A stretch of 64,000 nt of DNA from NCBI RefSeq assembly GCF_000384315.1, contig NZ_ARVW01000001.1:434001-498000 (forward strand), read 5' to 3'. Positions 4,374-47,009 of this stretch are shown here, in pieces (positions within the stretch are counted from its first letter, which is position 1; every line of letters starts with the position of its first letter). The notes under the pieces are model-generated. The model ran no database searches. It worked only from the letters and a program-made list of their open reading frames with translations, and was not told where the DNA came from. Both the position numbers and the translations under genes were made by a program. The stretch is from Amycolatopsis nigrescens CSC17Ta-90 (GTDB taxonomy: Bacteria; Actinomycetota; Actinomycetes; Mycobacteriales; Pseudonocardiaceae).

Positions 4374-4417
4374 TCGTGAGTGAAAAGTGTTGCCGGGGCA
4401 ACACTTTTCACTCACGA
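4374..4417. repeat. 44-bp palindromic intergenic repeat, copy 1
   Basis: Perfect inverted repeat with 21-base arms (TCGTGAGTGAAAAGTGTTG then CC) and a 2-base centre (GG). It sits between the convergent LCP and ndk genes, 6 bases from the ndk stop. A transcript of either strand would fold into a very stable hairpin, so it can act as a bidirectional terminator, although no T-run follows. The same element occurs at 9005, 25334 and 46966. Confidence 0.95.
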
Positions 4418-4423
4418 GGCCGG

Positions 4424-4834
4424 TCAGAGCTTGGGGAACCAGAGGGCCAGCTCGCGGTTGGCCGACTCGGCCGAGTCGGAGCCGTGCACCAGGTTGAACT
4501 GGGTCTCCAGCGCGAAGTCGCCGCGAATGGTGCCCGGGGTGGCCTTCTCCACCGGGTCGGTGCCGCCGGCCAGCTGCCGGAACGCCGCGATGGCGCGCGG
4601 GCCCTCGACGGCTAGCGCGACGACCGGGCCGGAGGTGATGAACTCCAGCAGCTCGCCGAAGAACGGCTTCTCCTTGTGCTCGGCGTAGTGCTCCTCGGCC
4701 ACCGAACGCTCCACGGTGCGCAGCTCCAGCGCGGCCAGGGTCAGGCCCTTGCCTTCGATCCGCGAGATGACCTCGCCGACCAGACCGCGCTTGACGCCAT
4801 CGGGCTTGACCAGAACCAGCGTGCGTTCACTCAC
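4424..4834 (-). CDS. ndk: Nucleoside diphosphate kinase
   Basis: Complete NDK of 136 residues, the usual length. It transfers the gamma phosphate of ATP to nucleoside diphosphates through a phospho-histidine and so balances NTP and dNTP pools in the cytoplasm. The active-site His117 lies in NLVHGSDS. The N-terminal [12 protein letters not shown] and the [18 protein letters not shown] region are typical. The GTG start at 4832-4834 has a GGAG 10 bases upstream. In mycobacteria ndk follows directly after folC and a DUF4233 gene. Here a phosphatase and an acylase gene separate it from them. Confidence 0.97.
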
Positions 4835-4891
4835 GACGGTGTTTCTCCTTCAGCAGGTCTTGTGCTATTCGCCCGAACTCTAACGTTCCGG

Positions 4892-6454: not shown

Positions 6455-6609
6455 GGCGCGGTTCTATCCCGCGTCGCGGTCCACCCGGCCAACTGGGGTT
6501 GTCCACCCGGTGAACCTGCGGAACTCCGCACGATGATCGAAATAGCGAGCTGCCGACGGGCCGCGGTGGCTACGTTGAGCGAGAAAGCACTTACCGAAAG
6601 GCGGTATCC

Positions 6610-8988
6610 ATGTCACTGGCCCGAAAATGGCCGATGGCTCTGGTGGCTCTGATCCTGGTGACCTCAGCGCCCGCGGTGGCCGAGGCCGGCGGAGCCCGCA
6701 GCACGATCCGCTACACCGAGCACGGCGTCCCGCACATCGTGGCCAAGGACTTCGACGGTCTCGGCTACGGCTACGGCTACGCGGCGGCGAAGGACAACAT
6801 CTGCGAGCTGGCGAACGGTTATCTCACCGTTTCCGCCCAGCGCTCCCGCCATTTCGGCCCGGACGGCACCGGCAATTCGGCGCTCAGCTCGGCGAGCGGC
6901 AACCTGAACAGCGACCTGTACTTCCAGCGGATCATCGATGAGGGCACGGTGGAGCGGTTGGCCGCCCAGCCCGCCCCGCTCGGGCCCCGCGCCGAGGTCC
7001 GCGAGCTCGTCTCCGGCTACACCCAGGGCTACAACCGCTATCTCGCCGAAACCGGGCCGGACGGCGTCACCGATCCGGCCTGCCGTGGCGCGGACTGGCT
7101 GCGGCCGATCGATGAGCTGGACGTCTACCGGCACTTCTACGCCATCGCCACGGTCTCCGGGCAGGGCGCGCTGGCCGACGGCACGGTCACCGCCGCACCG
7201 TCCCAGCCGGTCGCCAGCGACACCGATCACACGGCCACGGCCGAACGGCTGAAAGCCGGTCTGGAGCGCACGCTCGGTACCGGCGAGCTGGGCAGCAACG
7301 GCATCGCGATCGGCTCGGAAGGCGTGGCCGAGAACGCCGGAGCGCGGAGTGTGCTGCTCGGCAATCCGCACTATCCCTGGCACGGCGGGCGCCGGTTCTG
7401 GCAGTCGCAGCTGACCATTCCCGGCCGGTTCGACGTCTCCGGCGCGAGCCTGCTCGGCGTCCCGCTGGTGCAGATCGGGCACACCGCGAACGCGGCCTGG
7501 ACGCACACCGTGGCCACCCCGCGCACCTTCGGCCTGTTCGAGGTGCCGCTGGTGCCCGGCGACCCGACCAGCTACCTGGTGGACGGGCGGCCGGAGAAGA
7601 TGACCTCCTCGACCGTCCGGGTCGCGGTCAAGCAGGAAGACGGCTCGCTCGGCGAGGTGCAGCGGACGTTGTACGGCACCCGCTACGGACCGGTGCTCAC
7701 CTCCGCCACCGGCGTGCCGCTGCCGTGGACCGGGCAGTCCGCGCACGCCCTGCGGGACGGCAACGCGGCCAACCTGCGCGGGCTGAACACCTGGTTCGGG
7801 CTGAACCAGGCGCAGAGCACCGGGCAGATCCTGCGCGCGCTGACCGAGACCCAGGGCGCGCCGTGGGTGAACACGGTGGCCACCGACCGGGCGGGGAACG
7901 CGCTGTACTCGGACGTCCAGGTGGTCCCGCACGTCACCGACGAGCTCGAACGCGACTGCGGCACCCCGCTCGGGCACAAGCTGTTCGCCGCCTCCGCAGT
8001 GTCTATTTTGGACGGTGGAAGGTCGTCCTGTGCCTGGGGAACCGACGCGGACGCGGTCGAGCCCGGCCTGTTCGGACCGGCAAGACTGCCGGCTCAGCAG
8101 CGCCGCGACTACACGCTCAACGCGAACGACAGCGCCTGGCTGGCGAACGCGCGTGAGCCGATCACCGGCTACCCGAGGATCGTCGGCACGATCGGCACCG
8201 AACGCTCCGCGCGTACCCGCGAAGCCCTGTCCCGAGTCGAGGAAGTGTTGTCCGGCAAGGGATTCAGCACGGACTCGATGAAGGAGCTGCTGTTCGCCGA
8301 GCACAGCAAGATGGCCGAGCTGGCCGCCCCGGACGCGGCGAAGATGTGCGCCGCCTTCCCCGACGGCCAGGCACCTTCGGCGCACGGGCCGGTGGACGTG
8401 CGGACGGCCTGCGACGCACTGGCCGGATGGGACCACAGCTACCGGCTCGACTCGCTCGGCTCGCTGCTGTTCGAGCGGTTCGTGCTCAATCTTGGCTCGG
8501 CCGGCGGGCAGTGGCTGACCGCGTTCGATCCGGCCGATCCGGTGCGCACGCCGAACACGCTGAACACCGGGGCCGCCGCCGTGCAGACCGCGTTCGGCAA
8601 CGCGGCCGCCGAGCTGCGCGACGCCGGCATCCCGCTGGACGCGCGCCTCGCCGACTACCAGTCGGTGACCAGGAACGGGGTCCGGATCCCGCTGCACGGC
8701 GCCCCGCACCAGCTCGGGGTGCTGGACGTGATCTCGCCCGTCTGGGACGCGCGCCGGGGCAATGTGGAGGTGAGCACGGGGTCGAGCTTCCTGCAGGTGG
8801 TCGCGTTCGGCCGGGACGCCTGCCCGGACGCTTCGACGCTGCTCACCTACTCGCAGTCGGCGGACCCGACGTCACCGTACTTCGCCGACCAGACCGAGCT
8901 GTTCTCCCGCGGTGAATGGGCACGCGGCCGCTTCTGCGAACGCGACATTCTCGCCTCCCCGGCCCTGCACGTCGTCCCTTTGCGCTAA
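6610..8988 (+). CDS. Secreted Ntn-hydrolase acylase (aculeacin/AHL acylase type)
   Basis: Precursor of 792 residues in the penicillin-acylase family. A signal peptide (about residues 1-25) is followed by the alpha chain (YTEHGVPHIVAKDFDGLGYGYGYA), a spacer, and the autocatalytic site Gly228-Ser229 in LGSNGIAIG, where Ser229 becomes the N-terminal nucleophile of the beta chain. The FGPDGTGN and GVPLVQIGHTANAAWTHTV segments resemble aculeacin A acylase and the Streptomyces acyl-homoserine-lactone acylase AhlM. It likely removes long acyl chains from lipopeptides or signalling lactones outside the cell; the substrate cannot be told from sequence. The ATG has an AAGGCGG site 6 bases upstream. It stands alone, convergent with the DUF4233 gene and separated from it by palindrome copy 2. 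Confidence 0.88.
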   Translation: MSLARKWPMALVALILVTSAPAVAEAGGARSTIRYTEHGVPHIVAKDFDGLGYGYGYAAAKDNICELANGYLTVSAQRSRHFGPDGTGNSALSSASGNLNSDLYFQRIIDEGTVERLAAQPAPLGPRAEVRELVSGYTQGYNRYLAETGPDGVTDPACRGADWLRPIDELDVYRHFYAIATVSGQGALADGTVTAAPSQPVASDTDHTATAERLKAGLERTLGTGELGSNGIAIGSEGVAENAGARSVLLGNPHYPWHGGRRFWQSQLTIPGRFDVSGASLLGVPLVQIGHTANAAWTHTVATPRTFGLFEVPLVPGDPTSYLVDGRPEKMTSSTVRVAVKQEDGSLGEVQRTLYGTRYGPVLTSATGVPLPWTGQSAHALRDGNAANLRGLNTWFGLNQAQSTGQILRALTETQGAPWVNTVATDRAGNALYSDVQVVPHVTDELERDCGTPLGHKLFAASAVSILDGGRSSCAWGTDADAVEPGLFGPARLPAQQRRDYTLNANDSAWLANAREPITGYPRIVGTIGTERSARTREALSRVEEVLSGKGFSTDSMKELLFAEHSKMAELAAPDAAKMCAAFPDGQAPSAHGPVDVRTACDALAGWDHSYRLDSLGSLLFERFVLNLGSAGGQWLTAFDPADPVRTPNTLNTGAAAVQTAFGNAAAELRDAGIPLDARLADYQSVTRNGVRIPLHGAPHQLGVLDVISPVWDARRGNVEVSTGSSFLQVVAFGRDACPDASTLLTYSQSADPTSPYFADQTELFSRGEWARGRFCERDILASPALHVVPLR

Positions 8989-9002
8989 AACCGCAGGTCA
9001 CC

Positions 9003-9050
9003 GGTCGTGAGTGAAAAGTGTTGCCAGGGCAACGCTTTTCACTCACGACC
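9003..9050. repeat. 44-bp palindromic repeat, copy 2 (extended arms)
   Basis: The same element as at 4374, core 9005-9048, centre AG, with pairing extended to GG...CC at 9003-9050. One arm position differs (T to C), which still allows a G-U pair in RNA. The minus-strand DUF4233 gene runs into it: its last codons are TCG-TGA (stop at 9043-9045), both inside the repeat. Confidence 0.95.
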
Positions 9051-9444
9051 CGGTGGTGGGTTGCTGGCTGGGGAGGGTGCCGGCGGCCATCCGCTTTGCC
9101 ACCTCGCGGCGCAGCCAGAGCAGCCACACCAGGATGGCGAGGAACAGCAGCCCGATGATGGCCACCGCGGGCAACACGAAGAAGAACGCGATCAGGCCGA
9201 GTTGCAGGGCGAGCACCACCGGTACCACCCAGGAGTACTTGAGCAGCCCGCAGCAGACCACCAGCGCGACCGCGATGGCGATCACCGCCCAGCCCTTGGC
9301 GCTGTCGATGCCGCCGCCGAGCTTCGCCACCACCGGCAGCGCCAGTGCGACGGTAATCGCCTCCATGATCAGCGTCCCGGCCAGCACCCCGCGGAAGGAC
9401 TTCATCGGGTCCTTCGCCGGCTTCGGCACCTGCTGCTCGCTCAT
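9043..9444 (-). CDS. DUF4233 membrane protein between folC and ndk
   Basis: Protein of 133 residues with four hydrophobic segments (about 18-38, 47-65, 68-85 and 88-108) and a basic C-terminal tail, so an integral membrane protein of unknown function. It follows folC by 25 bases on the same strand, the position of the DUF4233 gene in actinobacterial folC-DUF4233-ndk clusters. The ATG at 9442-9444 is preceded by GGAG at 7 bases; a GTG two codons upstream is an alternative. The stop codon and the last serine lie inside palindrome copy 2, so the original C-terminus may have been replaced when the repeat arrived. Confidence 0.85.
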   Translation of the reverse strand: MSEQQVPKPAKDPMKSFRGVLAGTLIMEAITVALALPVVAKLGGGIDSAKGWAVIAIAVALVVCCGLLKYSWVVPVVLALQLGLIAFFFVLPAVAIIGLLFLAILVWLLWLRREVAKRMAAGTLPSQQPTTGS

Positions 9445-9469
9445 TCCCACACTCCAAGCTCACCCGAAC

Positions 9470-11146: not shown

Positions 11147-11245
11147 TCCAACTCCCAACTCGTGCCTGCGCACGGACCACCCGAGTCTACGTGCGGGGCT
11201 CTCGCGGCCGCCCACCTGCGTGCCGTTGCTCAGTAGCCTGGCCGC

Positions 11246-11860: not shown

Positions 11861-11950
11861 AGAGCGGTTCAGCCACTCGAATGGAGGCAGCGTTCTCACT
11901 GCGTTACCGACTAGGAACAGAGTGTCAGCCCGACTCAAAGGGGAGTCTCC

Positions 11951-12826
11951 ATGCGCACTCGCCGGTTCCTGCTCACCACGGTCCTCGCCGCACTGGCGAT
12001 GATCGCGTCCAGCCTCACCGCGGCGGCCGCGACCCGGTCGTTCCAGCGCTATGTCGCGCTCGGCGACTCGTACACCGCCGGCCCGCTGATCCCGCTGCCG
12101 CGGCTGGACCCGCTCGGCTGCGGCCGCTCGACCGCCAACTACCCCGCGCTGCTCGCGCAGGCGCTGCACGTGCGGTCCTACACCGACGCCAGCTGCAGCG
12201 GCGCGGACACCACGCACATGACCACCGCGCAGGACGTGCTGCTGGGCCGGAACCGGCCGCAGTTCGACGCCCTGCGCACCGACACCGACCTGGTCACCCT
12301 GGGCATCGGCGGCAACGACTACGGCGTCTTCGGCGCGGCCATCGGCACCTGCCCCGGTCTGCGCGCGTCCGACCCGACCGGCAACCCGTGCGAGCGGCAC
12401 TTCACCGTCGACGGGGTGGACACCCTGAAGGCGGCCATCGCCCGGATCCAGCCGAACGTGACCGAGGTGCTCAAGGGCATCCACCAGCGCTCGCCGGGGG
12501 CGAAGGTGCTGGTCATCGGCTACCCGAGGATCGCACCGGCGCGCGGCTACTGCCCGGATGTGCTGCCCTTCGCCAACGGTGACTACGCCTGGCTGAACAG
12601 CGTCGAAGTAGCGCTCAACCACGCACTGGCCAAGGCCGCCGCCGAGGACGGCGACGCGTCCTATGTGGACACCTTCGGCCCGTCGCTCGGCCACGACGCC
12701 TGCGCCCCGCGCGGCGTCGCCTGGATCAACGGCAAGGACCTGGACCTGCTCGCCGCCGCCGACTACCACCCGTTCCGCACCGGCATGGCCGGCGTCGCCG
12801 CCGTCACCCTCTCCACCCTCCGCTAA
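11951..12826 (+). CDS. Secreted SGNH/GDSL lipase-esterase
   Basis: Protein of 291 residues with a signal peptide (about 1-27, ending TAAAAT). It carries the four SGNH blocks: GDSYTAG with nucleophile Ser40, a block II region, GIGGNDYGVF (block III, Asn) and DYHPFRTG with the catalytic His273. Conserved cysteines (GCGRS, DASCSG, GTCPG, YCPD, HDACAP) resemble the disulfide-stabilised Streptomyces exoesterases such as the S. coelicolor lipase. It hydrolyses ester bonds in lipids or small acyl esters outside the cell. A GGGGAG ribosome site precedes the ATG. It ends just before a 55-bp palindrome shared with the valS 3' side. Confidence 0.9.
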   Translation: MRTRRFLLTTVLAALAMIASSLTAAAATRSFQRYVALGDSYTAGPLIPLPRLDPLGCGRSTANYPALLAQALHVRSYTDASCSGADTTHMTTAQDVLLGRNRPQFDALRTDTDLVTLGIGGNDYGVFGAAIGTCPGLRASDPTGNPCERHFTVDGVDTLKAAIARIQPNVTEVLKGIHQRSPGAKVLVIGYPRIAPARGYCPDVLPFANGDYAWLNSVEVALNHALAKAAAEDGDASYVDTFGPSLGHDACAPRGVAWINGKDLDLLAAADYHPFRTGMAGVAAVTLSTLR

Positions 12827-12838
12827 GCCCCCTGCCCA

Positions 12839-12893
12839 GTCCGTGAAGGCCACCTTGCCTACCTTGAAGGTAGGCAAGGTGGCCTTCACGGAC
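12839..12893. repeat. 55-bp perfect palindrome between lipase and valS
   Basis: Perfect inverted repeat with 27-base arms around a single G. The arms begin GTCCGTGAAGGCCACCTTG. It lies between convergent genes, 12 bases after the lipase stop and 7 bases from the valS stop, with a short A-run (12894-12899) on the valS side. It differs in sequence from the 44-bp family but has the same location type, and shares a TGAAGG start with the palindrome at 49355. It could terminate transcription from both sides. Confidence 0.95.
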
Positions 12894-12900
12894 AAAAAAG

Positions 12901-15543
12901 CTAGGAGGCTGGGAGGGTGGAGAGGCGAGAGGTGATGCGGGTGATGTCGGCGAGCGCGGTTTCCTTGCGCAGCTTGATCTTGTCGACGACTGCCGCCGGC
13001 GCCTTGGCCAGGAAGGCTTCGTTGCCCAGTTTGCCCTCGGTCTGCTGGAGTTCCTTGCGCGCCGCGGCCAGGTCCTTCTCCAGCCGCTTGCGCTCGGCCA
13101 CCACGTCCACCGTGCCGGACAGGTCCAGCTCGATCTTGGCCATCCCGGCGGACAGCGGCACCTCCAGCGACGCGCTCGGCGCGAAGCCGTCCTCCGGGTC
13201 GGTCAGCCGGACCAGCGAGCGCACCGCGCCGTCGTGCCCGGAGATCTCCTCGAATCCGCCGCCGGAAAGCCGCGCCGCCACCTTCTGCCCCGGCTTGAGC
13301 CCCTGGTCCGCACGGAACCGGCGCACCTCGGTGACCAGCTTCTGCACGTCCGCGATCCGCCCGTCGGCCACCGGGTCGGCGTACGCACCGTCCGCATTGG
13401 ACAGTGCGGGCCACTCCGCGATGACCAGCGACTCGCCGCCGGTGAGCGCGGTCCACAGCTTCTCGGTGACGAACGGGATCAGCGGGTGCAGCAGCCGCAG
13501 CACCACGTCCAGCACGTGCCCGAGCACCGCCCTGGTGTTCGCCACCGTGCGCTCGTCGCCCTGGTAGAACTGCACCTTCGCCAGTTCCAGGTACCAGTCG
13601 CACAGCTCGTCCCAGGTGAAGTGGTACAGCGCCTCGGTGGCCTTGGCGAACTGGTACTCCTCCAGCAGCCCGTCCACTTCGGACACGACCGAGCCGAGCA
13701 TGCCGAGTATCCACCGGTCGGCCTCGGTGAGCTGCTCGGCTGGCGGCACCGGGGTGGCCACGTTGGCGCCGTTCATCAGCGCGAACTTGGTGGCGTTCCA
13801 CAGTTTCGTGCAGAAGTTCCGCGAGCCGCTGACCCACTCCTCGGCCATCGCCATGTCACCGCCCGGGTTCGCCCCGCGCGCCAGGGTGAACCGGGTGGCG
13901 TCCGCGCCGTAGCTGTTCATCCAGTCCAGCGGGTCGATCACGTTGCCCTTGGACTTGGACATCTTCTTGCCGTTGGCGTCGCGGACCAGCCCGTGCAGAT
14001 AGAGATTGTCGAACGGCTGCACCCCGTCGGTGGCGTACAGGCCGAACATCATCATCCGCGCGACCCAGAAGAACAGGATGTCGTAGGCGGTGCACAGGAC
14101 GCTGGTCGGATAGAACTTCGCCAGGTCCGCGGTGCGCTCCGGCCAGCCGAGCGTGGACAGCGGCCACAGCCCGGAGGAGAACCAGGTGTCCAGCACGTCC
14201 GGGTCCTGGTACCAGCCCTCACCGGTGGGCGGCTCCTCGTCCGGGCCGAGGCAGACGCTCTTGTCGTCCGGGCCGTACCAGACCGGGATCCGGTGCCCCC
14301 ACCAGAGCTGGCGCGAGATGGTCCAGTCGTGCATGTTGTCGACCCAGTCGAAGTAGCGCTTGGCCAGCTCCGGCGGGTGAATCGTGGTGCGGCCGTCGCG
14401 CACCGCGTCGCCGGCCGCGCGGGCCAGCGGCTCGACCTTCACCCACCACTGCAGCGAAAGCCGCGGCTCGACCACCGTGTCGCAGCGCGAGCAGTGCCCG
14501 ACCGAGTGCAGATACGGCCGCTTCTCCGCGACGATCCGGCCCTGTTCCCGCAGCGCCGCGACCACCGCCGGCCGCGCCTCGAACCGGCCCTGCCCCTGGA
14601 ACGGCCCGTGCGCGGTGATCACCGCGTGTTCGTCCATAATGGACAACGCGGGCAGGTCGTGCCGCCTGCCGATCTCGAAGTCGTTCGGGTCGTGCGCGGG
14701 GGTGACCTTGACCGCGCCGGTGCCGAACTCGGGGTCCACGTGCTCGTCGGCCACGATCGGGATCATCCGGCCGGTCAGCGGCAGCTCGACCTCGGTGCCG
14801 ATCAGGTGCCGGTACCGCTCGTCGTCCGGGTGCACCGCAACCGCGGTGTCTCCGAGCATCGTCTCGGCGCGGGTGGTGGCCACCACGATCGCGTCCTGGC
14901 CGTCGCCGTAGCGGATCGACACCAGCTCGCCCTCGTCCTCGGAGTGGTCCACCTCGATGTCGGACAGCGCGGTGAGGCAGCGCGGGCACCAGTTGATGAT
15001 CCGCTCGGCGCGGTAGATCAGCCCGTCCTCGTACAGCTTCTTGAACATGGTCTGCACGGCCCGCGACCGGGCTTCGTCCATGGTGAAGCGCTCACGGGAC
15101 CAGTCGACGCTGTCGCCGAGCCGCCGCATCTGGTCGAGGATCCGGCCGCCGTACTCGGCCTTCCAGTCCCACACGCGCTCGACGAACTTCTCCCGGCCGA
15201 GGTCGTGCCGCGACTTGCCCTCGCCTGCCAGTTCGCGTTCCACCACGTTCTGGGTGGCGATGCCGGCGTGGTCCATGCCGGGCAGCCACAGCGCCTCGTA
15301 GCCCTGCATCCGGCGGCGGCGGGTCATCACGTCCATCAGGGTGTGGTCCAGCGCGTGCCCCACGTGCAGGCTGCCGGTGACGTTCGGCGGCGGCAGTACG
15401 ATCGTGAACGGCGGCTTTTCCGACCCGGCGTCCGCGGTGAAGTATCCGGCGTCTACCCAGCGCTGGTAGAGGTCGGCTTCTTCCTCGGCCGGGTTCCAGG
15501 CACCCGGGAGTTCGGTCTGCTGCTGCGCGTGGTTCTCCGTCAC
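12901..15543 (-). CDS. valS: Valyl-tRNA synthetase
   Basis: Complete class Ia synthetase of 880 residues that charges tRNA-Val and edits misacylated threonine. The HIGH signature is [15 protein letters not shown], the KMSKS loop is [14 protein letters not shown], and the CP1 editing domain ([20 protein letters not shown]) is intact. The C-terminal coiled coil ([32 protein letters not shown]) is typical of bacterial ValRS. The GTG start at 15541-15543 (VTENHAQQ) gives the expected length; the long open frame upstream is compositional. In mycobacteria folC follows valS directly. Here a lipase and a methyltransferase gene on the opposite strand lie between. Confidence 0.97.
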
Positions 15544-20266: not shown

Positions 20267-21064
20267 TTGACCGACCCGAGCCTCCGCGCGGACTGCGCGA
20301 ACTGCTTCGCGCTGTGCTGCGTCGCTCCGGCCTTCTCTGCTTCAGCGGACTTCGCCATCAACAAGCCCGCCGGAAAGCCTTGCCACAATCTCCAGCCGGA
20401 CTTCCGCTGCGGAATTCACCAGAACCTCCGTCAGCGGGGTTTCCCCGGCTGCACCGTCTACGACTGCTTCGGTGCCGGGCAGAAGGTCTCTCAACTCACC
20501 TTCGGCGGCCAGGACTGGCGAAAGGACCCGCGCACCGCGAAGCAGATGTTCGCCGTCTTCCCGGTGATGCGCGATCTGCACGAACTGCTCTCGTACCTCA
20601 CCGACGCGCTGAACCTGCCCCGCGCCCACCCGTTGCACGACGAACTCCGCCGCGCGCTCGACGAGACCGAGCGCCTCACCAAGTACAACCCCGAAGCCCT
20701 GCTGGACCTCGACGTGCCCGCGCACCGCCGGCAGGTCAACGTCCTCCTTACCCGCGCGAGCGAACTCGCCCGCGCCGAAATCCGCCGCAAGAAGGACCAC
20801 CGCGGTGCCGACCTGATCGGCGCGTCCTTGAAAGGCGCCGACCTGCGCGGCGCCAACCTCCGCGGCGCCTATCTGATCGGTGCGGATCTCCGCGACGCCG
20901 ACCTCCGCCATGCCGACGTCATCGGCGCCGACCTCCGCAACGCCGACCTCACCGGCGCCGACCTCACCGACGCCCTCTACCTCATCCAGTCCCAGCTCGA
21001 CGCCGCCCGCGGCAGCTCCACCACGAAACTGCCCCACGATTTCACTCGTCCGGCGCATTGGTAG
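20267..21064 (+). CDS. Cys-rich domain plus pentapeptide-repeat protein
   Basis: Protein of 265 residues. The N-terminal 65 residues carry a cysteine cluster (CANCFALCC, KPCHNL, FRCGIH, GCTVYDCFG) resembling the CxxC...CC metal-binding pattern of YkgJ-like proteins. A helical middle (about 85-175) follows, then about a dozen A(D/N)LxG pentapeptide repeats (about 184-245) that should form a right-handed beta helix. Pentapeptide proteins include DNA mimics protecting gyrase, but no quinolone-resistance role can be claimed here. The start is a TTG at 20267-20269, supported by AGGAGACC upstream. It stands alone after the GNAT gene. Confidence 0.82.
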   Translation: MTDPSLRADCANCFALCCVAPAFSASADFAINKPAGKPCHNLQPDFRCGIHQNLRQRGFPGCTVYDCFGAGQKVSQLTFGGQDWRKDPRTAKQMFAVFPVMRDLHELLSYLTDALNLPRAHPLHDELRRALDETERLTKYNPEALLDLDVPAHRRQVNVLLTRASELARAEIRRKKDHRGADLIGASLKGADLRGANLRGAYLIGADLRDADLRHADVIGADLRNADLTGADLTDALYLIQSQLDAARGSSTTKLPHDFTRPAHW

Positions 21065-25333: not shown

Positions 25334-25377
25334 TCGTGAGTGAAAAGTGTTGCCCTGGCAACACTTTTCACTCACGA
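25334..25377. repeat. 44-bp palindromic repeat, copy 3
   Basis: Perfect arms identical to copy 1, centre CT. It lies between two same-strand genes: it ends the M14 peptidase gene (TCG-TGA stop at 25372-25374 inside the repeat) and starts 14 bases upstream of the SDR ATG. It therefore sits where a terminator separating two minus-strand units would be. Confidence 0.95.
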
Positions 25378-27903
25378 CCGTTGACCTGCGGAAACCCAGA
25401 AGACGGCCTTGCCGACCTGAGCGTAGAGGCCCTTCGGGTGGTTGCGGAACAGGGGTTCGGTACCGAAGAGCACGGTGCGGGCGCCCGCCGCCGCGACACC
25501 GGAGACCACCGAAGCCGAACCGGCCGCCTGCGCCTGCCCGGCCCCGTCGTCGCCGGGCAGCCAGTGCCCGGCCACCAGCGGACCCTGCCGCGCGTAGCTC
25601 TGCTCCGCGGTCACGCCGTCGCCGAGGTCGGTGAACCACAGTGGCGAGTAGACGAACGAATGCGCCGGCGAACCGGACCCGACCGGCCCGGCGCCGCCGG
25701 TCACCGACACGACGCCGTTCGCATCCGACCGGCCCGCCACCGCCCGCACCGGCAGCAGCCCGGCGGCGGCGTTGAACGCGGCCCCGGTCGAACCCCTGGT
25801 GACCACGCCGCCACGGGCGAACAACGCGTCCACCGACTGCTTCGCGGTCGTATTCAAGTCCTTATAGGACAGTCCGGATGAGACGAACAGGGCGTCCGTG
25901 CGGCTCAGGTCGAACCCGTCGTTGAGCACCGCGGTGGACACCGGCCGCACCTCGAAACCCATCTCCCGCAGGGCGGCCAGCTCGTCGGCCGCGACCGCCG
26001 CGGCGAGCACCGGCTTCCGCAGCAACGGCCCGCGCGGCCCGGCCGGGGCAGCGGTGAACCGCACCCCGAGCTGCTCGGCCACCGCCAGCGCCGCGGCCCG
26101 CGCGGCAGCGGGCACCACCACCGAGCCGTCCGGCTGCCGGTGCACCGGCTGTCCCTGGCCCAGCAGGGTGTTCACCGCGAGCACGTCCTTGCCGTCCACC
26201 TGCGCCAGCGCGAGATCCCGCCCCGGCGGAGCGTCCACCCCGCCGGTCGGCGCGGCCACCGTCACCGGGGTGGTCCGCACGCGCGGCGCCTCGGACTTCA
26301 CCACGTCCACCGACGCGCCCCAGAGCAGCCGGTGACTCCAGCCGCTGATGTCGTACATCTGGGGCACCTTCGCGGAAATGTCCTTGCCGTCCTCCAGGAT
26401 CACGTTGGCCAGCCCGCGTTTCGGCTGGTGCAGATCGACCAGATAGGACCCGGCCGGGTAGTTCCGCCCGGCCAGCCGGAAGTCGCGGTCGGCCCGACCG
26501 ACCCGGACGTCGTTGGCCACCAGCTGGTCCACCAGCCTGGCCGCCGCGACCGCGGACCGCTGGGCGGGACCGGCGGGAATCACGTAGGCGCGCGGGAACT
26601 CCGTCGAATAGCGGTCCTCCGGCCCGAAGCCGGGTACGAAACCATCCGGGATCGGCTGCTGCGGCTCCCCCGCCCAGCCGCGCCGGAACTGCTCGATCTG
26701 GTCCGCGATCAGCTCGTCGCGATGCGCCCCGGTGTAGGCGATCCCGGCCAGGATGGTGGCCTCGGAGACGTCCGCGTTCACCCCGGACCGCCGGCGCAGC
26801 TCCTCGACCGGCAGGTTCTCGTACTCACCGCGGTTGACCCGCAGCGGAACCTCGACCGTGTGGCCGACCGCGCCGTGGTAGATCGAGTACATCGGGGTGA
26901 AGATCGGCGGCCAGTCGTCCCATTCGCCGGGCGCGAAGTCGCGGAACGGGATGTCCGCGCGTGCCGACTCGGGATGGCCGAGCTCGCCGATCGCCTTCTC
27001 CATGCCGAGCGCGTTGGCGTAGGCGTGCTTGAGGTAGAGGTCGTACTCGTAGTTCTGCCCGTGCGGCGGGGTGCCCGGCTCGATCAGCGTGGTCCCGGTG
27101 TAGCCGTGCTCGTCCAGCATCACCAACGGCTGCTTGGCGATCACCAGGTCGCGCATCGCCCTGGACTCGGGCTGGGCGGAGATGGTCTGGTCGCGGTTGA
27201 GGTCGAACCCGGCCGCGTTCGCGCGGGTACCGGCGACGCGGCCGTCCGGGTTGTTGGTGACGGTGAAGTAGATCCGGCCGCGTTCGAGCAGCCGCCGGTC
27301 GTCACGGTCGGTGCTGGTGGCGAGCCGCTCGATCACCCGCAGCGTGCCGTCGGTGCCCTCCCACTCGTCGCCGTGGATGTTCGCGTTGATCCACACCGGC
27401 GCCTTGTACTCGCGGGCCAGCCGGCGGTCGCGCTCGGCGGCCTTCGGGTCGTCCTCGATCAGCGAGCGCCAGCGGTCCTGCTGCCGGGTCTCGGCCGCGC
27501 GTTCCGGCGCGGTCAGGGTGACCAGGTAGAGGTCGCGGCCGAGGGTGGACTGGCCGATCACCTCCACCGAAACCCGGTCGCTGCGCGCCTGCAGCTCGTT
27601 CAGCTTCGGCGCGATCGAGTGGTACGGCGCCAGACCGAGCTTGATCGCCTTGTCCGACGGGTCCTCGGGGAACACCCGGAGCTGGGTCTTCCGCGGATAG
27701 CCCTGGTGGCGGTCAGCGCGGTTCTCCCCCGCCGCCGCGGCCATCGCCCGCGGCGGCGGGTCGGTGGCGGCGACCTCGTTGCGTTCCGCCCCGTTGCCGG
27801 GGTCACGATGGCTCCCCTCCGGCGGCTGCGCCGCACTCGCCGGAACCACAATGGCCAGCACCATCAGCACAGCGGCGCACAGACGACCTGCAGCACGTGA
27901 CAC
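25372..27903 (-). CDS. Secreted M14 zinc carboxypeptidase
   Basis: Large exported peptidase of 843 residues. A signal peptide (1-25) is followed by a short propeptide-like stretch and the M14 domain, with zinc ligands His177 and Glu180 in NIHGDEWEGTDG, NNPDGR (substrate-binding Asn/Arg region), FDLNRD and the third His in LDEHGYTG. A long C-terminal extension (about 480-843) contains an IDQ...WGASVDVV segment and a DUF-like alpha/beta domain. It likely trims peptides outside the cell. The GTG start has GGAGG at 9 bases. The stop and last serine are donated by palindrome copy 3. About 70 bases separate it from the transporter genes. Confidence 0.88.
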   Translation of the reverse strand: MSRAAGRLCAAVLMVLAIVVPASAAQPPEGSHRDPGNGAERNEVAATDPPPRAMAAAAGENRADRHQGYPRKTQLRVFPEDPSDKAIKLGLAPYHSIAPKLNELQARSDRVSVEVIGQSTLGRDLYLVTLTAPERAAETRQQDRWRSLIEDDPKAAERDRRLAREYKAPVWINANIHGDEWEGTDGTLRVIERLATSTDRDDRRLLERGRIYFTVTNNPDGRVAGTRANAAGFDLNRDQTISAQPESRAMRDLVIAKQPLVMLDEHGYTGTTLIEPGTPPHGQNYEYDLYLKHAYANALGMEKAIGELGHPESARADIPFRDFAPGEWDDWPPIFTPMYSIYHGAVGHTVEVPLRVNRGEYENLPVEELRRRSGVNADVSEATILAGIAYTGAHRDELIADQIEQFRRGWAGEPQQPIPDGFVPGFGPEDRYSTEFPRAYVIPAGPAQRSAVAAARLVDQLVANDVRVGRADRDFRLAGRNYPAGSYLVDLHQPKRGLANVILEDGKDISAKVPQMYDISGWSHRLLWGASVDVVKSEAPRVRTTPVTVAAPTGGVDAPPGRDLALAQVDGKDVLAVNTLLGQGQPVHRQPDGSVVVPAAARAAALAVAEQLGVRFTAAPAGPRGPLLRKPVLAAAVAADELAALREMGFEVRPVSTAVLNDGFDLSRTDALFVSSGLSYKDLNTTAKQSVDALFARGGVVTRGSTGAAFNAAAGLLPVRAVAGRSDANGVVSVTGGAGPVGSGSPAHSFVYSPLWFTDLGDGVTAEQSYARQGPLVAGHWLPGDDGAGQAQAAGSASVVSGVAAAGARTVLFGTEPLFRNHPKGLYAQVGKAVFWVSAGQRS

Positions 27904-36223: not shown

Positions 36224-36312
36224 GTCTGCCTGCCTTTTCGCCGCTGTGGGTCCGGTCCCCCGCGACCCACTGTGGACTTCGTTCAGATGCTTGATCTTGC
36301 AATCGACCCTAA

Positions 36313-36354
36313 CGAACTTGGGCGGTGTCCAATGCCCGACACCGCCCAAGTTCG
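36313..36354 (-). terminator. Strong hairpin after tig
   Basis: 17-base perfect stem (arms begin CGAACTTGGGCGGTGTC) with an 8-base loop, starting about 10 bases after the tig stop on the minus strand. Only a short TT follows, the usual GC-rich actinobacterial L-shaped form. It separates tig from clpP1P2. Confidence 0.8.
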
Positions 36355-36363
36355 CTCAGAGCG

Positions 36364-37773: not shown

Positions 37774-37928
37774 CGTTTTCTCCTCGAGCCGTGACTGTGT
37801 AGGTTGGTTTGAACGGTCCCAATGCCCAGGTCAAGGAATGAACCGGGTCGCCCGAGTCTAGGCCAGTGACTCGCCAGCTCGGGCGGGGGTGCCAATCGGG
37901 CCTCAATCGGGCTCAGATCGGGCGCAGA

Positions 37929-38525: not shown

Positions 38526-38531
38526 AGCGGC

Positions 38532-38571
38532 AGTTTACAACTACCGGTCACCTGTGGTTCAGATTTACAAC
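38532..38571. promoter_or_regulatory. Repeated TTTACAAC operator between TetR and hydroxylase genes
   Basis: TTTACAAC occurs at 38534-38541 and 38564-38571, exactly 30 bases (about three helical turns) apart in the divergent gap. The first lies in AGTTTACAACT, an inverted repeat with a 3-base centre (38532-38542). A TetR dimer is a natural candidate to bind here. Confidence 0.5.
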
Positions 38572-38635
38572 TTGGCTTACCTTGTCTAGCGTTGTCAGTT
38601 CTTCAGTCTTCTGCTGTCGCGCGAGGAGCCTCTCC

Positions 38636-40438: not shown

Positions 40439-40510
40439 GCGCACTGAGCGCACAGCCGGCGCACAGCACAGCCACATCCCGCTCCTACCAACCGGCCGCA
40501 CGCTGGGGCG

Positions 40511-41971: not shown

Positions 41972-41993
41972 GTGCGGTGGCGAAAGTGGCCCG

Positions 41994-43805
41994 ATGACCG
42001 TACGACGATGGGCCGTGGCCGGCCTGCTGCTGGGGACCGCGCTGCTCTACCTCTGGGGACTGGGGGCGTCCGGCTGGGCGAACGCCTACTACTCGGCCGC
42101 CGCGCAGGCCGGCGCGGCGAGCTGGAAGGCGTGGGTGTTCGGCGCCACCGACGCGGCGAACGGGATCACGGTGGACAAGACGCCGGCCGCGCTCTGGCTG
42201 CCCGGGCTTTCCGTGCGGCTGTTCGGGCTCGGCTCGTGGAGCGTGCTGGTGCCGCAGGCGCTGATGGGCGTCGGCTCGGTCGCGCTGCTGTACGCCACCG
42301 TGCGCCGCACGTCGGGGCACACCGCCGGGCTGCTGGCCGGTGCGGTGCTCGCGCTGACCCCGGTGGCCGCGTTGATGTTCCGGTTCAACAACCCGGACGC
42401 GCTGCTCGTGCTGCTGCTCGTCGCGGCGGCCTACTGCGTGGTGCGCGCACTGGAGAAGGCCAGCCCGCGCTGGCTCGCGCTGGCCGGGATCGCGGTGGGT
42501 TTCGGCTTTCTGGCGAAGATGCTGCAGGCGTTCCTGGTGTTGCCCGCCTTCGCGCTGGTCTATCTGGTGGCCGCTCCCACCGGCATGGGCAAACGGGTGC
42601 TGCATCTGCTGGGCGCGGCGGTGGCGGTGGTGTTCTCCGCCGGCTGGTACCTCGCGCTGGTGGAGCTGTGGCCCGCCATGGACCGCCCGTACATCGGCGG
42701 CTCGCAGCGGAACAGCCTGCTCGAACTGGCACTGGGTTACAACGGGCTCGGCCGGATCACCGGGGACGAGGTGGGCAGCGTCGGCGGCGGGATGGGCCGC
42801 GGCTGGGGACAGACCGGCTGGAGCAGGCTGCTCGGCGGTGAGATGGCCGGCGGGATCGCCTGGCTGCTGCCGGCCGCGGTGCTCGCGACCGCAGCCGGGC
42901 TGTGGTTCACCCGCCGGGCCCCGCGCACCGATCCGGCACGCGCCGCGCTGTTGCTCTGGGGTGGCTGGCTGCTGGTGACCGCGGTGGTCTTCAGTTACAT
43001 GAGCGGCATCATCCACCCGTACTACACGGTCGCGCTGGCCCCCGCGGTCGCCGCGTTGACCGGGATCGGCGGGGTGGCCCTGTGGCGCCGCCGCGAGGAC
43101 CCGGCCGCGGCGGGCACGCTCGCCGCCGGGGTCGCGCTGACCGCGCTCACCTCGTACCTGGTGCTGGCCGGGCAACCGGACTGGCTGCCGTGGCTGGCGC
43201 CGGCGCTGCTGTTCGCCGGGCTGGCCGCGGCCGCGCTGGTACTGGTCGCGGGCCGCCTGCCCACCGCCGCCCGGCGCTCGGTGGCCGTGCTGACGCTGGC
43301 CGCCGTGCTGGCGGGCACGGGCGCGTACGCGGTGGCCACAGCGGCGACGCCGCACACCGGGGCGATTCCGTCCGCGGGTCCCGCTACCGGGCGCGCGCCC
43401 GGCGGAGGCGGGCAGGGACGCGCCGGTGGCGGGCTGCTGGGCGCCGCCGAGACCGACCCTTCGCTGGCCGCGCTGCTGGCCGCCGACGCGGAGAACTACG
43501 TCTGGGCGGTGGCGACCGTCGGGTCCAACAACGCGGCCGGCTACCAGCTCGCGATCGACGCGCCGGTGCTCGCGGTGGGTGGCTTCAACGGCACCGACCC
43601 GTCGCCGACGCTGGCCCAGTTCCAGCAGTACGTCCAAAGTGGACTGATTCACTTCTTCGCCGGCGACGGCATGTCGATGCGCGGCGAAACGGGCAGCGAT
43701 GAGGCACAGCGGATCGCGGACTGGGTCGCCGCCACCTTCCCCGCCAACACGGTCGGCGGCGTCACCGTCTACGACCTGAGCTACACAGGTGGCGCACAGC
43801 CATGA
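41994..43805 (+). CDS. GT39-like polytopic glycosyltransferase, paralogue A
   Basis: Membrane protein of 603 residues in the ArnT/PMT superfamily. It has about 11-12 spans and the catalytic first loop with Asp-Lys (TVDKTPAALW). RFNNPDALLVLLL in span 3-4 and GYNGLGRI are shared with paralogue B downstream. The C-terminal extracytoplasmic domain (about 490-603) ends in a Gly-rich linker and a small alpha/beta fold. It probably transfers a sugar from a polyprenyl phosphate to an extracellular acceptor. The ATG at 41994 overlaps no gene; its stop overlaps the GT2 start (ATGA). Confidence 0.87.
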   Translation: MTVRRWAVAGLLLGTALLYLWGLGASGWANAYYSAAAQAGAASWKAWVFGATDAANGITVDKTPAALWLPGLSVRLFGLGSWSVLVPQALMGVGSVALLYATVRRTSGHTAGLLAGAVLALTPVAALMFRFNNPDALLVLLLVAAAYCVVRALEKASPRWLALAGIAVGFGFLAKMLQAFLVLPAFALVYLVAAPTGMGKRVLHLLGAAVAVVFSAGWYLALVELWPAMDRPYIGGSQRNSLLELALGYNGLGRITGDEVGSVGGGMGRGWGQTGWSRLLGGEMAGGIAWLLPAAVLATAAGLWFTRRAPRTDPARAALLLWGGWLLVTAVVFSYMSGIIHPYYTVALAPAVAALTGIGGVALWRRREDPAAAGTLAAGVALTALTSYLVLAGQPDWLPWLAPALLFAGLAAAALVLVAGRLPTAARRSVAVLTLAAVLAGTGAYAVATAATPHTGAIPSAGPATGRAPGGGGQGRAGGGLLGAAETDPSLAALLAADAENYVWAVATVGSNNAAGYQLAIDAPVLAVGGFNGTDPSPTLAQFQQYVQSGLIHFFAGDGMSMRGETGSDEAQRIADWVAATFPANTVGGVTVYDLSYTGGAQP

Positions 43806-45112
43806 CACACCGACGGCAAAGGCCGCACCGCGACGGTGGCGTCATGACAGTCACGCTGCCTTCCCAGAAGACCGGGCCGGTCGACACCACCGGCACCGGC
43901 CCGGTGCTCGACGTGGTCATCCCGGTCTACAACGAAGAAGCCGACCTCGAACCGTGCGTCCGCCGGCTGCACGAGCACCTGACGGCCGGTTTCCCCTACC
44001 GCTTCCGGATCACCGTCGCGGACAACGCCAGCACGGACGGCACGCTGCGAGTCGCCGAGCGGCTGGCCCGCGAGTTCGCCGAGGTTTCCGTGCACCACCT
44101 GCCCGAAAAGGGCCGGGGGCGGGCGCTGCACGCGGTGTGGTCGGCCTCGGACGCGGCCGTGCTGGCCTACATGGACGTGGACCTGTCCACCGACCTCGCC
44201 GCGCTCTCGCCACTGGTGGCCCCGCTGCTGTCCGGGCATTCCGACCTGGCCATCGGCAGCAGGCTGGCCAGGGGCGCGCGGGTGGTCCGCGGCCCCAAGC
44301 GCGAGCTGATCTCCCGCTGCTACAACCTGCTGCTGCGCGGCACGCTGGCCGCCGGGTTCTCCGACGCGCAGTGCGGGTTCAAGGCGATCCGGGCGGACGT
44401 GGCGCGCCGGCTGCTGCCGCACGTCCGGGATGTCGGCTGGTTCTTCGACACCGAGCTGCTGGTGCTCGCCCAGCGCGCCGGGCTGCGGATCCACGAGGTG
44501 CCGGTGGACTGGGTGGACGACCCGGACTCGCGGGTGGATCTGCTGGCCACCGCGCTGGCCGATCTGAAGGGCATCGTCCGGCTGACCCGCGCGATGACGA
44601 ACGGCACCGTGCCGCTTGGCGAGCTGCGTGCCCAACTCGGCAGGCGGCCGATCGGGGTGCTGGCCCCCGGCGTGCCCACCAGCCTGCCCAAGCAATTGGT
44701 CCGCTTCGCCGCGATCGGGGTGGCCAGCACGCTGGCCTACCTGGTGCTGTTCCTGGCCCTGCGCACCGGAATGGGCGCACAGCCGGCGAACCTGGTCGCG
44801 CTGGCGGTGACCGCGGTGGCCAACACCGCGGCGAACCGCCGGCTCACCTTCGGCATCCGCGGCGCGAAGGGTGCGGGCCGGCACCAGTTCGAAGGGCTGA
44901 TCGTGTTCGGCCTCGGGCTGGCACTAACCAGCGGCTCGCTGGCCCTGCTGCACGGCCTGACCGCGCCGGGGCCCGTGCTCGAACTGTCCGTGCTGGTGCT
45001 GGCCAACCTGACCGCCACCGTGCTGCGGTTCCTGCTGCTGCGCGGCTGGGTCTTCCACCCACGCCGCCAAACCACCCAGAACACCACCGATACCCGGGAG
45101 AACCACCGATGA
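43802..45112 (+). CDS. GT2 polyprenyl-phosphate sugar transferase with GtrA domain
   Basis: Protein of 436 residues. The N-terminal GT2 domain has VVIPVYNEEADLEPCVRRLHEHL, the DxD motif YMDVDLSTD and GSRLARGARVVRGPKRELISRCYN, as in dolichol-phosphate mannose synthases, so it makes a polyprenyl-linked sugar on the cytoplasmic face. The C-terminal GtrA-like domain (about 300-420) has four membrane spans and could flip or hold the product. Coupled by ATGA to GT39 genes on both sides, it plausibly supplies their lipid-linked donor. The ATG at 43802 is supported by the overlap; an internal ATG 14 codons later is an alternative. Confidence 0.9.
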   Translation: MTHRRQRPHRDGGVMTVTLPSQKTGPVDTTGTGPVLDVVIPVYNEEADLEPCVRRLHEHLTAGFPYRFRITVADNASTDGTLRVAERLAREFAEVSVHHLPEKGRGRALHAVWSASDAAVLAYMDVDLSTDLAALSPLVAPLLSGHSDLAIGSRLARGARVVRGPKRELISRCYNLLLRGTLAAGFSDAQCGFKAIRADVARRLLPHVRDVGWFFDTELLVLAQRAGLRIHEVPVDWVDDPDSRVDLLATALADLKGIVRLTRAMTNGTVPLGELRAQLGRRPIGVLAPGVPTSLPKQLVRFAAIGVASTLAYLVLFLALRTGMGAQPANLVALAVTAVANTAANRRLTFGIRGAKGAGRHQFEGLIVFGLGLALTSGSLALLHGLTAPGPVLELSVLVLANLTATVLRFLLLRGWVFHPRRQTTQNTTDTRENHR

Positions 45113-46971
45113 CCAGCGTGCTCAGCACGGCGCCGCCGACCCCGATGCCGGCCACCGGAACACCCGCCAGGCCGGACCGGCCGCGCTGGCAACGTCCGGC
45201 GGTGGCCGTGCTGCTGGCCGGCACCGCGGTGCTGTACCTGTGGAACCTGACCGCTTCCGGCTACGGCAACTCCTTCTACGCGGCTGCCGTGCAGGCCGGT
45301 TCGCAGAGCTGGAAGGCGTGGCTGTTCGGCTCGCTGGACGCGGGAAACGTGCTCACCGTGGACAAACCGCCCGCCGCCCTGTGGGTGGCCGGGTTGTTCG
45401 CCAGGATCTTCGGTTTCTCCAGTTGGACCGTGCTGGCCCCGCAGGCGCTGATGGGGGTGGCCTCGGTCGGGCTGCTGTACGCGACGGTGCGCCGGAGTTC
45501 CGGCCCGGTGCCAGGGCTGCTCGCCGGTGCCGCGCTGGCACTGACCCCGGTGGCCGCGCTGATGTTCCGGTTCAACAACCCGGACGCGCTGCTGGTGCTG
45601 CTGCTCGTCGCGGCGGCCTATTTCGTGGTGCGGGCGCTGGAAAAGGCGAGTCCGCGCTGGCTGGCGCTGGCCGGGGTGGCGATCGGTCTCGGCTTCCTGA
45701 CCAAGATGATGCAGGCGTTCCTGGTGCTGCCCGCCTTCGCGCTGGTGTACCTGGTGGCCGCTCCCACCGGTCTCGGCAAACGGGTGCTGCACCTGCTTGG
45801 CGCCGGGCTGGCGGTGGTGGTCTCGGCGGGCTGGTACATCGCGCTGGTCGAGCTCTGGCCCGCCGCGGACCGGCCCTACATCGGCGGTTCCACCGACAAC
45901 AGCCTGCTGGAACTGGCGCTGGGCTACAACGGGCTCGGCCGGATCTTCGGCCGCGGTGAAGGCGGACCGGGCGGCGGCGGACCCGGCGGTGACGGCGGCG
46001 GCGCGGGCAATGTCGCGTTCGGTGGCGAAACCGGGATCGGCAGGCTGTTCGGCGCGAGCATGGGCATCGAGATCTCCTGGCTGCTGCCGGCCGCGCTGCT
46101 CGGCCTGGTGGCCGGGCTCTGGTTCACCCGCCGCGCCCCGCGCACCGACCGCACCAGGGCCGCGCTGCTGCTGTGGGGTGGCTGGCTGCTGGTGACCGGG
46201 CTGGTGTTCAGCTTCATGGGCGGGATCACGCACCCCTACTACGCGGTGGCGCTGGCCCCCGCGATCGCCGCGCTGATCGGCATCGCGGGCCGGGAACTGT
46301 GGCAGGGCAGGCACAACAGGCTGGCCCGTGCCGCGCTCGCGGCGATGGTTGCGGCCACCGCGGTCTGGGGGTTCATCCTGCTGGACCGGACTCCGGACTG
46401 GCTGCCCGCGCTGCGCTGGGCGCTGGTCGCGCTCGGCCTGGTGGTGGCCACCGCGCTCGCGGTCGGGCTGCCCTCGTTCCGGAAGCTGACCGCGGTGCTG
46501 GCGGCGGCCGCGGTGCTGACCGCCGGGGTGGCCACCGCCGCCTACACGGTGGACACCGCGTCCAGGACCCATCGGGGGTCGATCCCCATCTCGGGCCCGG
46601 GTGACTCCGCGATGGGTGGCGGCATGGGTATGGAGCGGGACCAGGCCGATCCCGAACTGGCCGCGCTGCTGGCGCGGACCAGCGGCACCTGGGCGGCGGC
46701 GACCACCGGCGCCCAGTCCGCGGCGAGCCTGGCACTGGCCAGCGGCAAGGCGGTGATCGGCATCGGCGGCTGGAGCGGCGGCGACCCGGCACCCACCCTG
46801 GAGCAGTTCCAGCGGTACGTGGCCGACGGGCAGGTGCGGTACTTCGTCACCGGCGGCCAGGGCGGGCCCGGTGGCCGCGAGGGCACCGGCACCACGATCA
46901 CCGAGTGGGTGGCGGCCAACTTCACCGCGACCACCGTCGGCGAGCAGACCGTCTACGACCTGTCCTCGTGA
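45109..46971 (+). CDS. GT39-like polytopic glycosyltransferase, paralogue B
   Basis: Protein of 620 residues and a close paralogue of A (shared TVDKPPAALW, FRFNNPDALLVLLLVAAAY, RPYIGGS, GYNGLGRI). It differs by a Gly-rich insertion (about 285-310) in the loop after span 8. It likely transfers a sugar from a polyprenyl phosphate outside the membrane. It starts at an ATG overlapping the GT2 stop and is the last of three coupled genes. Its final codons TCG-TGA lie inside palindrome copy 4. Confidence 0.87.
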   Translation: MTSVLSTAPPTPMPATGTPARPDRPRWQRPAVAVLLAGTAVLYLWNLTASGYGNSFYAAAVQAGSQSWKAWLFGSLDAGNVLTVDKPPAALWVAGLFARIFGFSSWTVLAPQALMGVASVGLLYATVRRSSGPVPGLLAGAALALTPVAALMFRFNNPDALLVLLLVAAAYFVVRALEKASPRWLALAGVAIGLGFLTKMMQAFLVLPAFALVYLVAAPTGLGKRVLHLLGAGLAVVVSAGWYIALVELWPAADRPYIGGSTDNSLLELALGYNGLGRIFGRGEGGPGGGGPGGDGGGAGNVAFGGETGIGRLFGASMGIEISWLLPAALLGLVAGLWFTRRAPRTDRTRAALLLWGGWLLVTGLVFSFMGGITHPYYAVALAPAIAALIGIAGRELWQGRHNRLARAALAAMVAATAVWGFILLDRTPDWLPALRWALVALGLVVATALAVGLPSFRKLTAVLAAAAVLTAGVATAAYTVDTASRTHRGSIPISGPGDSAMGGGMGMERDQADPELAALLARTSGTWAAATTGAQSAASLALASGKAVIGIGGWSGGDPAPTLEQFQRYVADGQVRYFVTGGQGGPGGREGTGTTITEWVAANFTATTVGEQTVYDLSS

Positions 46972-47009
46972 GTGAAAAGTGTTGCCAGGGCAACACTTTT
47001 CACTCACGA
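46966..47009. repeat. 44-bp palindromic repeat, copy 4
   Basis: Perfect arms as in copy 1, centre AG. It supplies the serine codon and TGA stop (46969-46971) of the GT39-B gene and could terminate the operon. The next gene, PP2C, starts 75 bases beyond. Confidence 0.95.

Follow-up and report, generated by a model that had tools for sequence, protein, structure and literature searches.

Several families of short hairpin repeats are known from bacteria. Paired repetitive extragenic palindromic (REP) sequences of Pseudomonas, the REP doublets forming hairpins (REPINs), are described as extragenic, hairpin-forming inverted pairs with conserved ends that are mobilised by a REP-associated tyrosine transposase (RAYT; PMC3116915). 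The CGTC-tagged REPs, among them RPE of Rickettsia and dRS3 of Neisseria, are described as short palindromic sequences, often paired, with no dedicated transposase; Actinobacteria and Amycolatopsis are not mentioned in the main text of that paper (PMC3733652). Here we describe a 44-bp palindromic element found in a 64,000-nucleotide stretch of Amycolatopsis nigrescens CSC17Ta-90 (contig NZ_ARVW01000001.1, positions 434,001 to 498,000 of the forward strand; hereafter the window), where an initial annotation had noted four copies at gene 3' ends. The element represents a single family of interspersed hairpin repeats and, in the sampled genomes, occurs only in Pseudonocardiaceae. The best explanation, to which we give a probability of about 50%, is a REPIN-like hairpin repeat that spreads by copying without a RAYT and is kept at gene ends as a putative two-way 3'-end or terminator structure.

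The element resembles REPINs in its many extragenic hairpin copies, in its conserved ends, in a spacer that keeps length and pairing rather than sequence, and in the presence of compensatory changes. It differs from REPINs as they are described in that paper in being tied to gene ends, whereas REP doublets are random in extragenic space (PMC3116915); moreover, its centre is conserved in some species, its arm often provides a stop codon, there is no GTAG at the ends, and the 80 genomes of the genus have no Y1/RAYT match. CGTC-tagged REPs, as described, have stems of 8-9 bp with the CGTC tag, whereas the element has a different sequence and forms a single 44-bp unit. A miniature inverted-repeat transposable element (MITE) would likewise be small, non-coding, bounded by inverted repeats and missing from some relatives, and such presence and absence was indeed observed for the element; however, the element shows no target duplication of 4-8 bp, a longer version sharing its ends was not noticed by eye among the unpaired 9-mers of 864 kb, and MITEs are typically longer than 44 bp. 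The uptake sequences of Neisseria and Haemophilus also combine a short conserved motif with species dialects and with inverted pairs that form terminators at gene ends. Their motif is common as single copies, mostly within genes, whereas the 9-mer of the element is rarely single (forward 9-mers paired at 26-bp spacing in 47 of 52 cases in 864 kb of A. nigrescens DNA) and its dialect lies in the arms and not in the motif.

The plan of the element is rigid, with TCGTGAGTG followed by 26 bp and then by CACTCACGA. The A. nigrescens genome (9.11 Mb, one contig) was found to hold 185 copies at spacers of 10-38 bp, 184 of them at exactly 26, and none of the reversed pattern searched as a control. Six further genomes gave the same picture, the counts at spacers of 12-40 and at exactly 26 being 492 and 487 in G079, 392 and 390 in G034, 394 and 389 in G070, 395 and 388 in G215, 454 and 443 in G328, and 227 and 225 in G322. 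A spacer of 28 instead of 26 gave 0-2 matches per genome in 390 genomes. Within the genus, 67 of 80 genomes carry the element with 1 to 487 copies each, and two genomes that are 96% identical over 6.8 kb have 108 and 13 copies. The 864-kb A. nigrescens sample consists of stretches picked where copies were listed together with the window, and the stretches of G079 and G215 were likewise picked for listed copies, so that densities there are not genome averages. Unless stated otherwise, the detailed sets comprise 47 copies from A. nigrescens, 44 from G079 and 38 from G215.

Each unit consists of a 44-bp core with conserved inverted ends of 8-9 bp and variable arms, to which a subset adds a tail of 14-18 bp on one side. 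When copies were found by the core alone, the outer ends were perfect in 46/48 copies of A. nigrescens, 38/40 of G215 and 41/47 of G079. Both remaining A. nigrescens copies have one mismatch, as does one of the two in G215, the other being unrelated, while four of the six in G079 have an identical change in both arms. A sub-family with ends altered in both arms (TCGTGAGCG...CGCTCACGA) is present in G079 and G070. Within a genome, identity of the variable arm segment in sampled copies was 0.88 in A. nigrescens, 0.89 in G006, 0.75 in G215, 0.70 in G079, 0.66 in G004 and 0.49 in G002, and it was 0.89 among 18 copies of a six-species cluster, whereas between these sets it ranged from 0.07 to 0.63. 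The inner arms are therefore species dialects, and the ends and length are nearly invariant. Complementarity of the arms exceeds that of shuffled arms in G215 and G002 (reached in 0/2000 shuffles), G079 (5) and G006 (20) but not in G004 (1948/2000). In A. nigrescens both arms are identical in 18/47 copies, against 15.5 expected if arms were dealt randomly (872/5000 shuffles reach 18). No enrichment of palindromy was found in the flanks of A. nigrescens copies past the 44 bp.

The two-base centre, reported in the initial annotation as variable, is indeed free in A. nigrescens (CT or AG in 12/47 copies) but fixed in some other species; CT or AG occupies it in 49/50 listed copies of G079, in 43/43 of G215 and in 21, 17 and 12 of 25 copies in three others. 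The centre form GTTCTAAC is found in 47/50 listed G079 copies and 43/43 of G215, and in 14 (G004), 10 (G002) and 8 (G006) of 25 copies each. It is directional and gives the unit an orientation where it is present. The two arms are also not equivalent in some species: in G215, position 18 is T in 33/43 left arms and G in 28/43 right arms, and in G006 it is T in 13/25 and G in 24/25, respectively. The tail, TGACCTGCGG, starts exactly 4 bp beyond the core in 17/47 A. nigrescens, 4/44 G079 and 6/38 G215 copies and is confined to one side at the score used, with a shuffled expectation of at most 0.8 sides per set.

Gene positions were taken from a hexamer gene caller made for this analysis, some calls of which are surely wrong. 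The A. nigrescens copies were found between convergent genes in 23 cases, tandem genes in 20 and divergent genes in one, with three in predicted coding sequence; the respective numbers are 21, 21, 1 and 1 for G079 and 21, 14, 3 and 0 for G215. A gene end lies within 25 nt in 40/47, 33/44 and 33/38 copies of A. nigrescens, G079 and G215. If the non-coding copies (44, 43 and 38) were inserted randomly into gaps, 6.2, 6.5 and 5.4 of them would lie so close, and the maxima over 2000 simulations were 15, 15 and 12. In these three genomes, which represent two genera, copies thus lie at gene 3' ends far more often than random insertion would predict. Many genes end inside the element itself. In A. 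nigrescens, 33 stop codons lie within an arm (26 TCG-TGA and 7 GAG-TGA) in 27/47 copies, six of which each give stops to two convergent genes, while 16 gene ends lie within 14 copies of G079 and 13 within 12 copies of G215. Both the preference for gene ends and the supply of the stop by TCG-TGA, claimed earlier from the window, are present in all three genomes.

Strongly conserved ends and spacing combined with free arms could also mark the DNA site of a dedicated protein, for instance a chromosome-organising or recombination factor, that reads both ends at fixed spacing, gene ends being just the places where such a site is tolerated. The directional centre and the fixed left/right differences of some species agree with this explanation, as does the lack of a clear tie between centre orientation and transcription: on the sense strand of tandem G079 and G215 copies the centre reads CT in 23 and AG in 12 (binomial p 0.09), and a smaller set from relatives has AG in 7 and CT in 2, several of them orthologous. 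Nevertheless, a generic binding site needs no position within a few nucleotides of stop codons, its arms would not have to remain complementary as they tend to in 4/5 genomes, and copy numbers of 108 and 13 in such close genomes are hard to reconcile with it. We consider it rather improbable.

Comparison of relatives shows that copies are gained and lost. At the site of window copy 1, among 20 relatives compared, the element with exact ends was found only in A. nigrescens and G070, in their respective dialects, and unrelated hairpins occupy the site in several other relatives. At the site of copy 2, A. nigrescens, G034, G060 and G079 have it, and in G070 one end is a variant. Read manually, the 18 copies of a cluster of six relatives, whose identity to G034 in the anchor region is 89-93% and whose coverage per site is incomplete, fall at nine sites, five of which are filled in a single genome and none in all covered genomes. 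One copy in G015 and one in G034 each correspond to an empty site in four relatives (flank identity 83-96%), and at one such filled/empty site the gene on the right, in the genome with the copy, terminates on the element. At other cluster sites, some species have the element and others a different hairpin at the same gene end; a mosaic arm intermediate was seen at one site, and symmetric double changes occur at orthologous sites. A second manual comparison was between G079 and G070, which are 92% identical over 9.4 kb. Of 44 G079 sites, 27 had no flanks in the sample, three were displaced and four had flank matches that were too distant, leaving ten to be judged. Four of these carry an element at the corresponding place, in no case with an identical arm pair although one shares a single arm type; one has an element about 300 bp off, one a probable variant with TCGTGAGCG ends, and four have no element, two of them with another hairpin. 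The 184-185 genome copies, the filled and empty sites and the species dialects bear out the earlier suggestion of spread by copying.

In a search with the 8-bp ends, 172/390 Pseudonocardiaceae genomes and 19/46 genera were positive, single matches per genome being possibly due to chance. The range is patchy, with one genus at 0/16 genomes and another at 1/25, while in three further genera the genomes richest in the element hold 331 to 477 copies. Outside the family, 0/254 genomes of the class were positive; the 256 genomes drawn also included A. nigrescens, the sole positive, and one further family member. The GTTCTAAC form is carried by at least 120 stretches of named genomes. Among the matches listed it occurs in Amycolatopsis, Kibdelosporangium, Haloechinothrix, Prauserella, Qaidamihabitans and Actinophytocola, three of which were checked and belong to Pseudonocardiaceae. 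Six listed stretches (L201, L210, L223, L227, L259 and L302) are labelled Rhodococcus rhodnii NRRL B-16535, which lies outside the expected family and is either a possibly mislabelled record or a genuine exception. The exact sequence of the A. nigrescens dialect had no match in a collection of genome contigs from which near relatives of the window were possibly excluded. Copy 3 with its flanks had no blastn match among plasmids and phages, and the one viral contig that matched the element did so at its very edge; nothing in the searches made thus indicates a phage or a plasmid as carrier. No description of this repeat was found among the literature matches listed, in a search that left most subscription journals outside.

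Given the dialects and the gain and loss of copies, we favour an element that multiplies within genomes and at new sites by copying other than RAYT transposition. The copying may act on a hairpin or single-stranded form, for example by template switching or through a hairpin-recognising recombinase; fixed ends, exchangeable arms and a centre fixed in some species would suit template switching between hairpins. Copies persist mainly at gene 3' ends, where position and predicted fold suggest that the hairpin serves, in both directions, as a terminator or as a structure forming mRNA 3' ends; the TCG-TGA at its edge often stands in for the stop codon used by orthologs without the element.

A number of observations weigh against this explanation. 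The REP-associated Y1 transposase, a search for which was proposed in the initial annotation, did not appear: PF01797 was found in 0/80 genomes of the genus and in 1/8 copy-bearing genomes of other genera (search control positive in 5/14), and no transposase or other enzyme linked to the element was found. The sole Y1 match in other genera lies at G363:C106:4228-4581. Target duplications of 4-8 bp, likewise proposed there as a check, are absent from the 47 A. nigrescens and 18 cluster copies, and shorter ones are only slightly above shuffled numbers in A. nigrescens (13 of 2 bp against 10.2 and 4 of 3 bp against 2.3), with 2 against 0.5 and 0 against 0.9 in the cluster. A longer version sharing the ends was not noticed, the unpaired 9-mers in the 864 kb framing no gene by eye. 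Decayed copies are almost absent in the core-based search, although a purely selfish element would be expected to leave them, the ninth end base is present in only 225/477 of the G322 copies having 8-bp ends, and the GTTCTAAC centre is not universal (0/47 copies in A. nigrescens, 0/4 in G322). The gains between relatives could partly stem from recombination with other strains. As to termination, TTTT within 12 nt of the element, as expected of the T-tract of a canonical terminator, was found in 0/94 A. nigrescens flanks. Available data on the E. coli tR2 terminator report almost full repression near a stop codon (PMC4824070). A stop inside the stem should similarly let the terminating ribosome mask it and prevent the hairpin from folding, which would make a standard terminator a poor fit for a gene ending inside the element; the other gene of a convergent pair could still use the hairpin. 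Finally, the 21 tandem A. nigrescens copies gave no support for RNA-level selection, with 5 sense G-U pairs against 15 sense A-C mismatches, opposite to what was expected. Taken together, copying, gene-end bias and stop supply stood up from the initial interpretation whereas the Y1 transposase and the target duplications did not.

An ordinary terminator alone was rejected as a full account, as the ends, spacing and tail are common to several genera and the arms are not. The earlier annotation had proposed that freely varying arms with compensatory changes, and orthologous genes ending identically without the repeat, would speak for such a terminator; compensatory arm changes and orthologous genes ending without the repeat were both observed, but an ordinary terminator would not be expected to show such ends, such a length and a restriction to one family. 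A more elaborate version holds that the copies are resident bidirectional terminators that do not transpose, selection keeping a strong hairpin at gene ends while gene conversion homogenises the copies into dialects and mosaic arms. This would account for the gene-end and convergent bias, for arms more complementary than shuffled in 4/5 genomes, and for the orthologous symmetric double changes and the mosaic intermediate. TTTT within 14 nt in G215 agrees with it as well (8/42 convergent, 2/14 tandem sense and 2/14 tandem antisense flanks); in G079 the respective numbers are 3/42, 1/21 and 1/21. The cross-genus ends, spacing and tail are left unexplained by resident terminators, however, as are the restriction to one family and the units at sites empty in relatives; A. 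nigrescens flanks have no TTTT, and its arms are hardly more alike than random. On balance we regard resident terminators as unlikely. Intrinsic terminators without a U-tract are nonetheless a relevant comparison, a U-lacking class of transcript ends having been mapped in Streptomyces clavuligerus (PMC8269248). Such I-shaped terminators of GC-rich bacteria, as described, share with the element a strong hairpin soon after genes and no T-tract, but they are a structural class, whereas the element is a single repeated sequence whose ends, length and tail are fixed and whose copies come and go between species.

The predicted RNA folds of the window copies are strong, at -29.0 to -32.9 kcal/mol for five strands (z -8.5 to -9.0), with copy 1 at -32.9 kcal/mol (z -8.5). 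Double-strand RNases require a stem of about two helical turns, and the element might accordingly be an RNA processing hairpin of that size, cut by such an enzyme and setting mRNA 3' ends or decay. Fixed length and fold would suit this role, yet the centre shows no clear strand preference in tandem copies, and the rarity of sense G-U pairs relative to sense A-C mismatches runs contrary to it, so that we hold it to be very improbable.

Other hairpins share these positions. The 864 kb of A. nigrescens DNA contain 117 strong hairpins, 47 of which are this element, and a 10-mer belonging to a second family (arm GTGAAGGCCACCTTGCCT) occurs in 22 of the 57 other hairpins outside predicted genes; smaller families are also present. 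One second-family copy lies in the window at 12839-12893 (arm GTCCGTGAAGGCCACCTTGCCTACC..., 26-bp arms, zero mismatch) between the convergent genes 11951-12826(+) and 12901-15543(-), and further strong gene-end hairpins are found at 49355-49394 (TGAAGGACGCCTTCGG...) and 36311-36356 (AACGAACTTGGGCGGTGTC...). By eye, the loops of several gene-end hairpin families, including the second family and the element centres of other species, read GTTC followed by A or T and then A (GTTCTA, GTTCAA). The reversed control pattern AGCACTCAC...GTGAGTGCT has 18 matches in G322, perhaps a further palindrome family, and none in five other genomes searched.

That different hairpins occupy orthologous gene ends suggests a shared niche. 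Tentatively, gene 3' ends across the family may be a niche contested by several mobile hairpin families that replace each other within species time; as these hairpins would bring both a transcript end and a stop codon, terminators would here not evolve in place but be gained whenever a mobile unit is copied by a new route other than RAYT. If the favoured explanation is true, many of the strong gene-end hairpins here (47 of the 117), and probably in related genomes too, are copies of a spreading repeat. This would explain a fast origin of bidirectional 3' ends in GC-rich genomes without T-tracts, would point to a copying machinery that awaits identification and would offer ready-made gene-end parts for engineering these hosts; Amycolatopsis is an antibiotic producer, and many of its relatives have hundreds of copies of the element, with rapid gain, loss and replacement between species. 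It would also be a warning for annotation, as C-terminal residues and stop codons at such sites can derive from an inserted repeat.

The four window copies were recovered where they had been reported (Table 1). The window has eight matches to the 19-base arm with at most three mismatches, while 100 shuffles gave 0.02 on average. Three copies are perfect, and copy 2 has a single T/C change that affects one of its arms. In order, the centres read GG, AG, CT and AG, and the genes at copies 2, 3 and 4 terminate on TCG-TGA within the element, both as first described. The 14-bp flank on one side of copies 2 and 3 recurs beside other copies. By Pfam, the eight neighbouring genes encode ordinary proteins, a short-chain dehydrogenase among them, with one of the eight lacking a match. 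An Rfam search of the window gave no match to a known RNA family.

Table 1. Element copies, one-sided tails and adjacent genes in the window (positions counted from its first nucleotide).
Feature	Position	Strand	Description
Element copy 1	4374..4417	.	Between convergent genes, 11 and 6 nt from both gene ends
LytR_cpsA_psr protein gene	3256-4362	+	Beside copy 1
Nucleoside diphosphate kinase (NDK) gene	4424-4834	-	Beside copy 1
Penicillin amidase family gene	6634-8988	+	Beside copy 2
Tail of copy 2	8991..9004	+	One-sided; CCGCAGGTCA + 4 nt touching the arm
Element copy 2	9005..9048	.	Between convergent genes; gives stop of DUF4233 gene
DUF4233 protein gene	9043-9444	-	Beside copy 2
Element copy 3	25334..25377	.	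Between tandem minus-strand genes; gives stop of M14 gene
M14 zinc carboxypeptidase gene	25372-27870	-	Stop from copy 3
Tail of copy 3	25378..25391	-	One-sided; 4 nt + TGACCTGCGG, within the last codons of the upstream gene
Mannosyltransferase-family gene	45202-46971	+	Stop from copy 4
Element copy 4	46966..47009	.	Between tandem plus-strand genes; gives stop of mannosyltransferase-family gene

Two other kinds of repeat were observed in the window. Nine direct repeats with a 15-base period (20804-20969) lie within the predicted gene 20267-21064, where they probably encode pentapeptide repeats. Two pairs of 300-base stretches, 75-76% identical, were found at 42011-43077 and 45198-46294; the second pair lies within the mannosyltransferase-family gene, which perhaps reflects a gene duplication.

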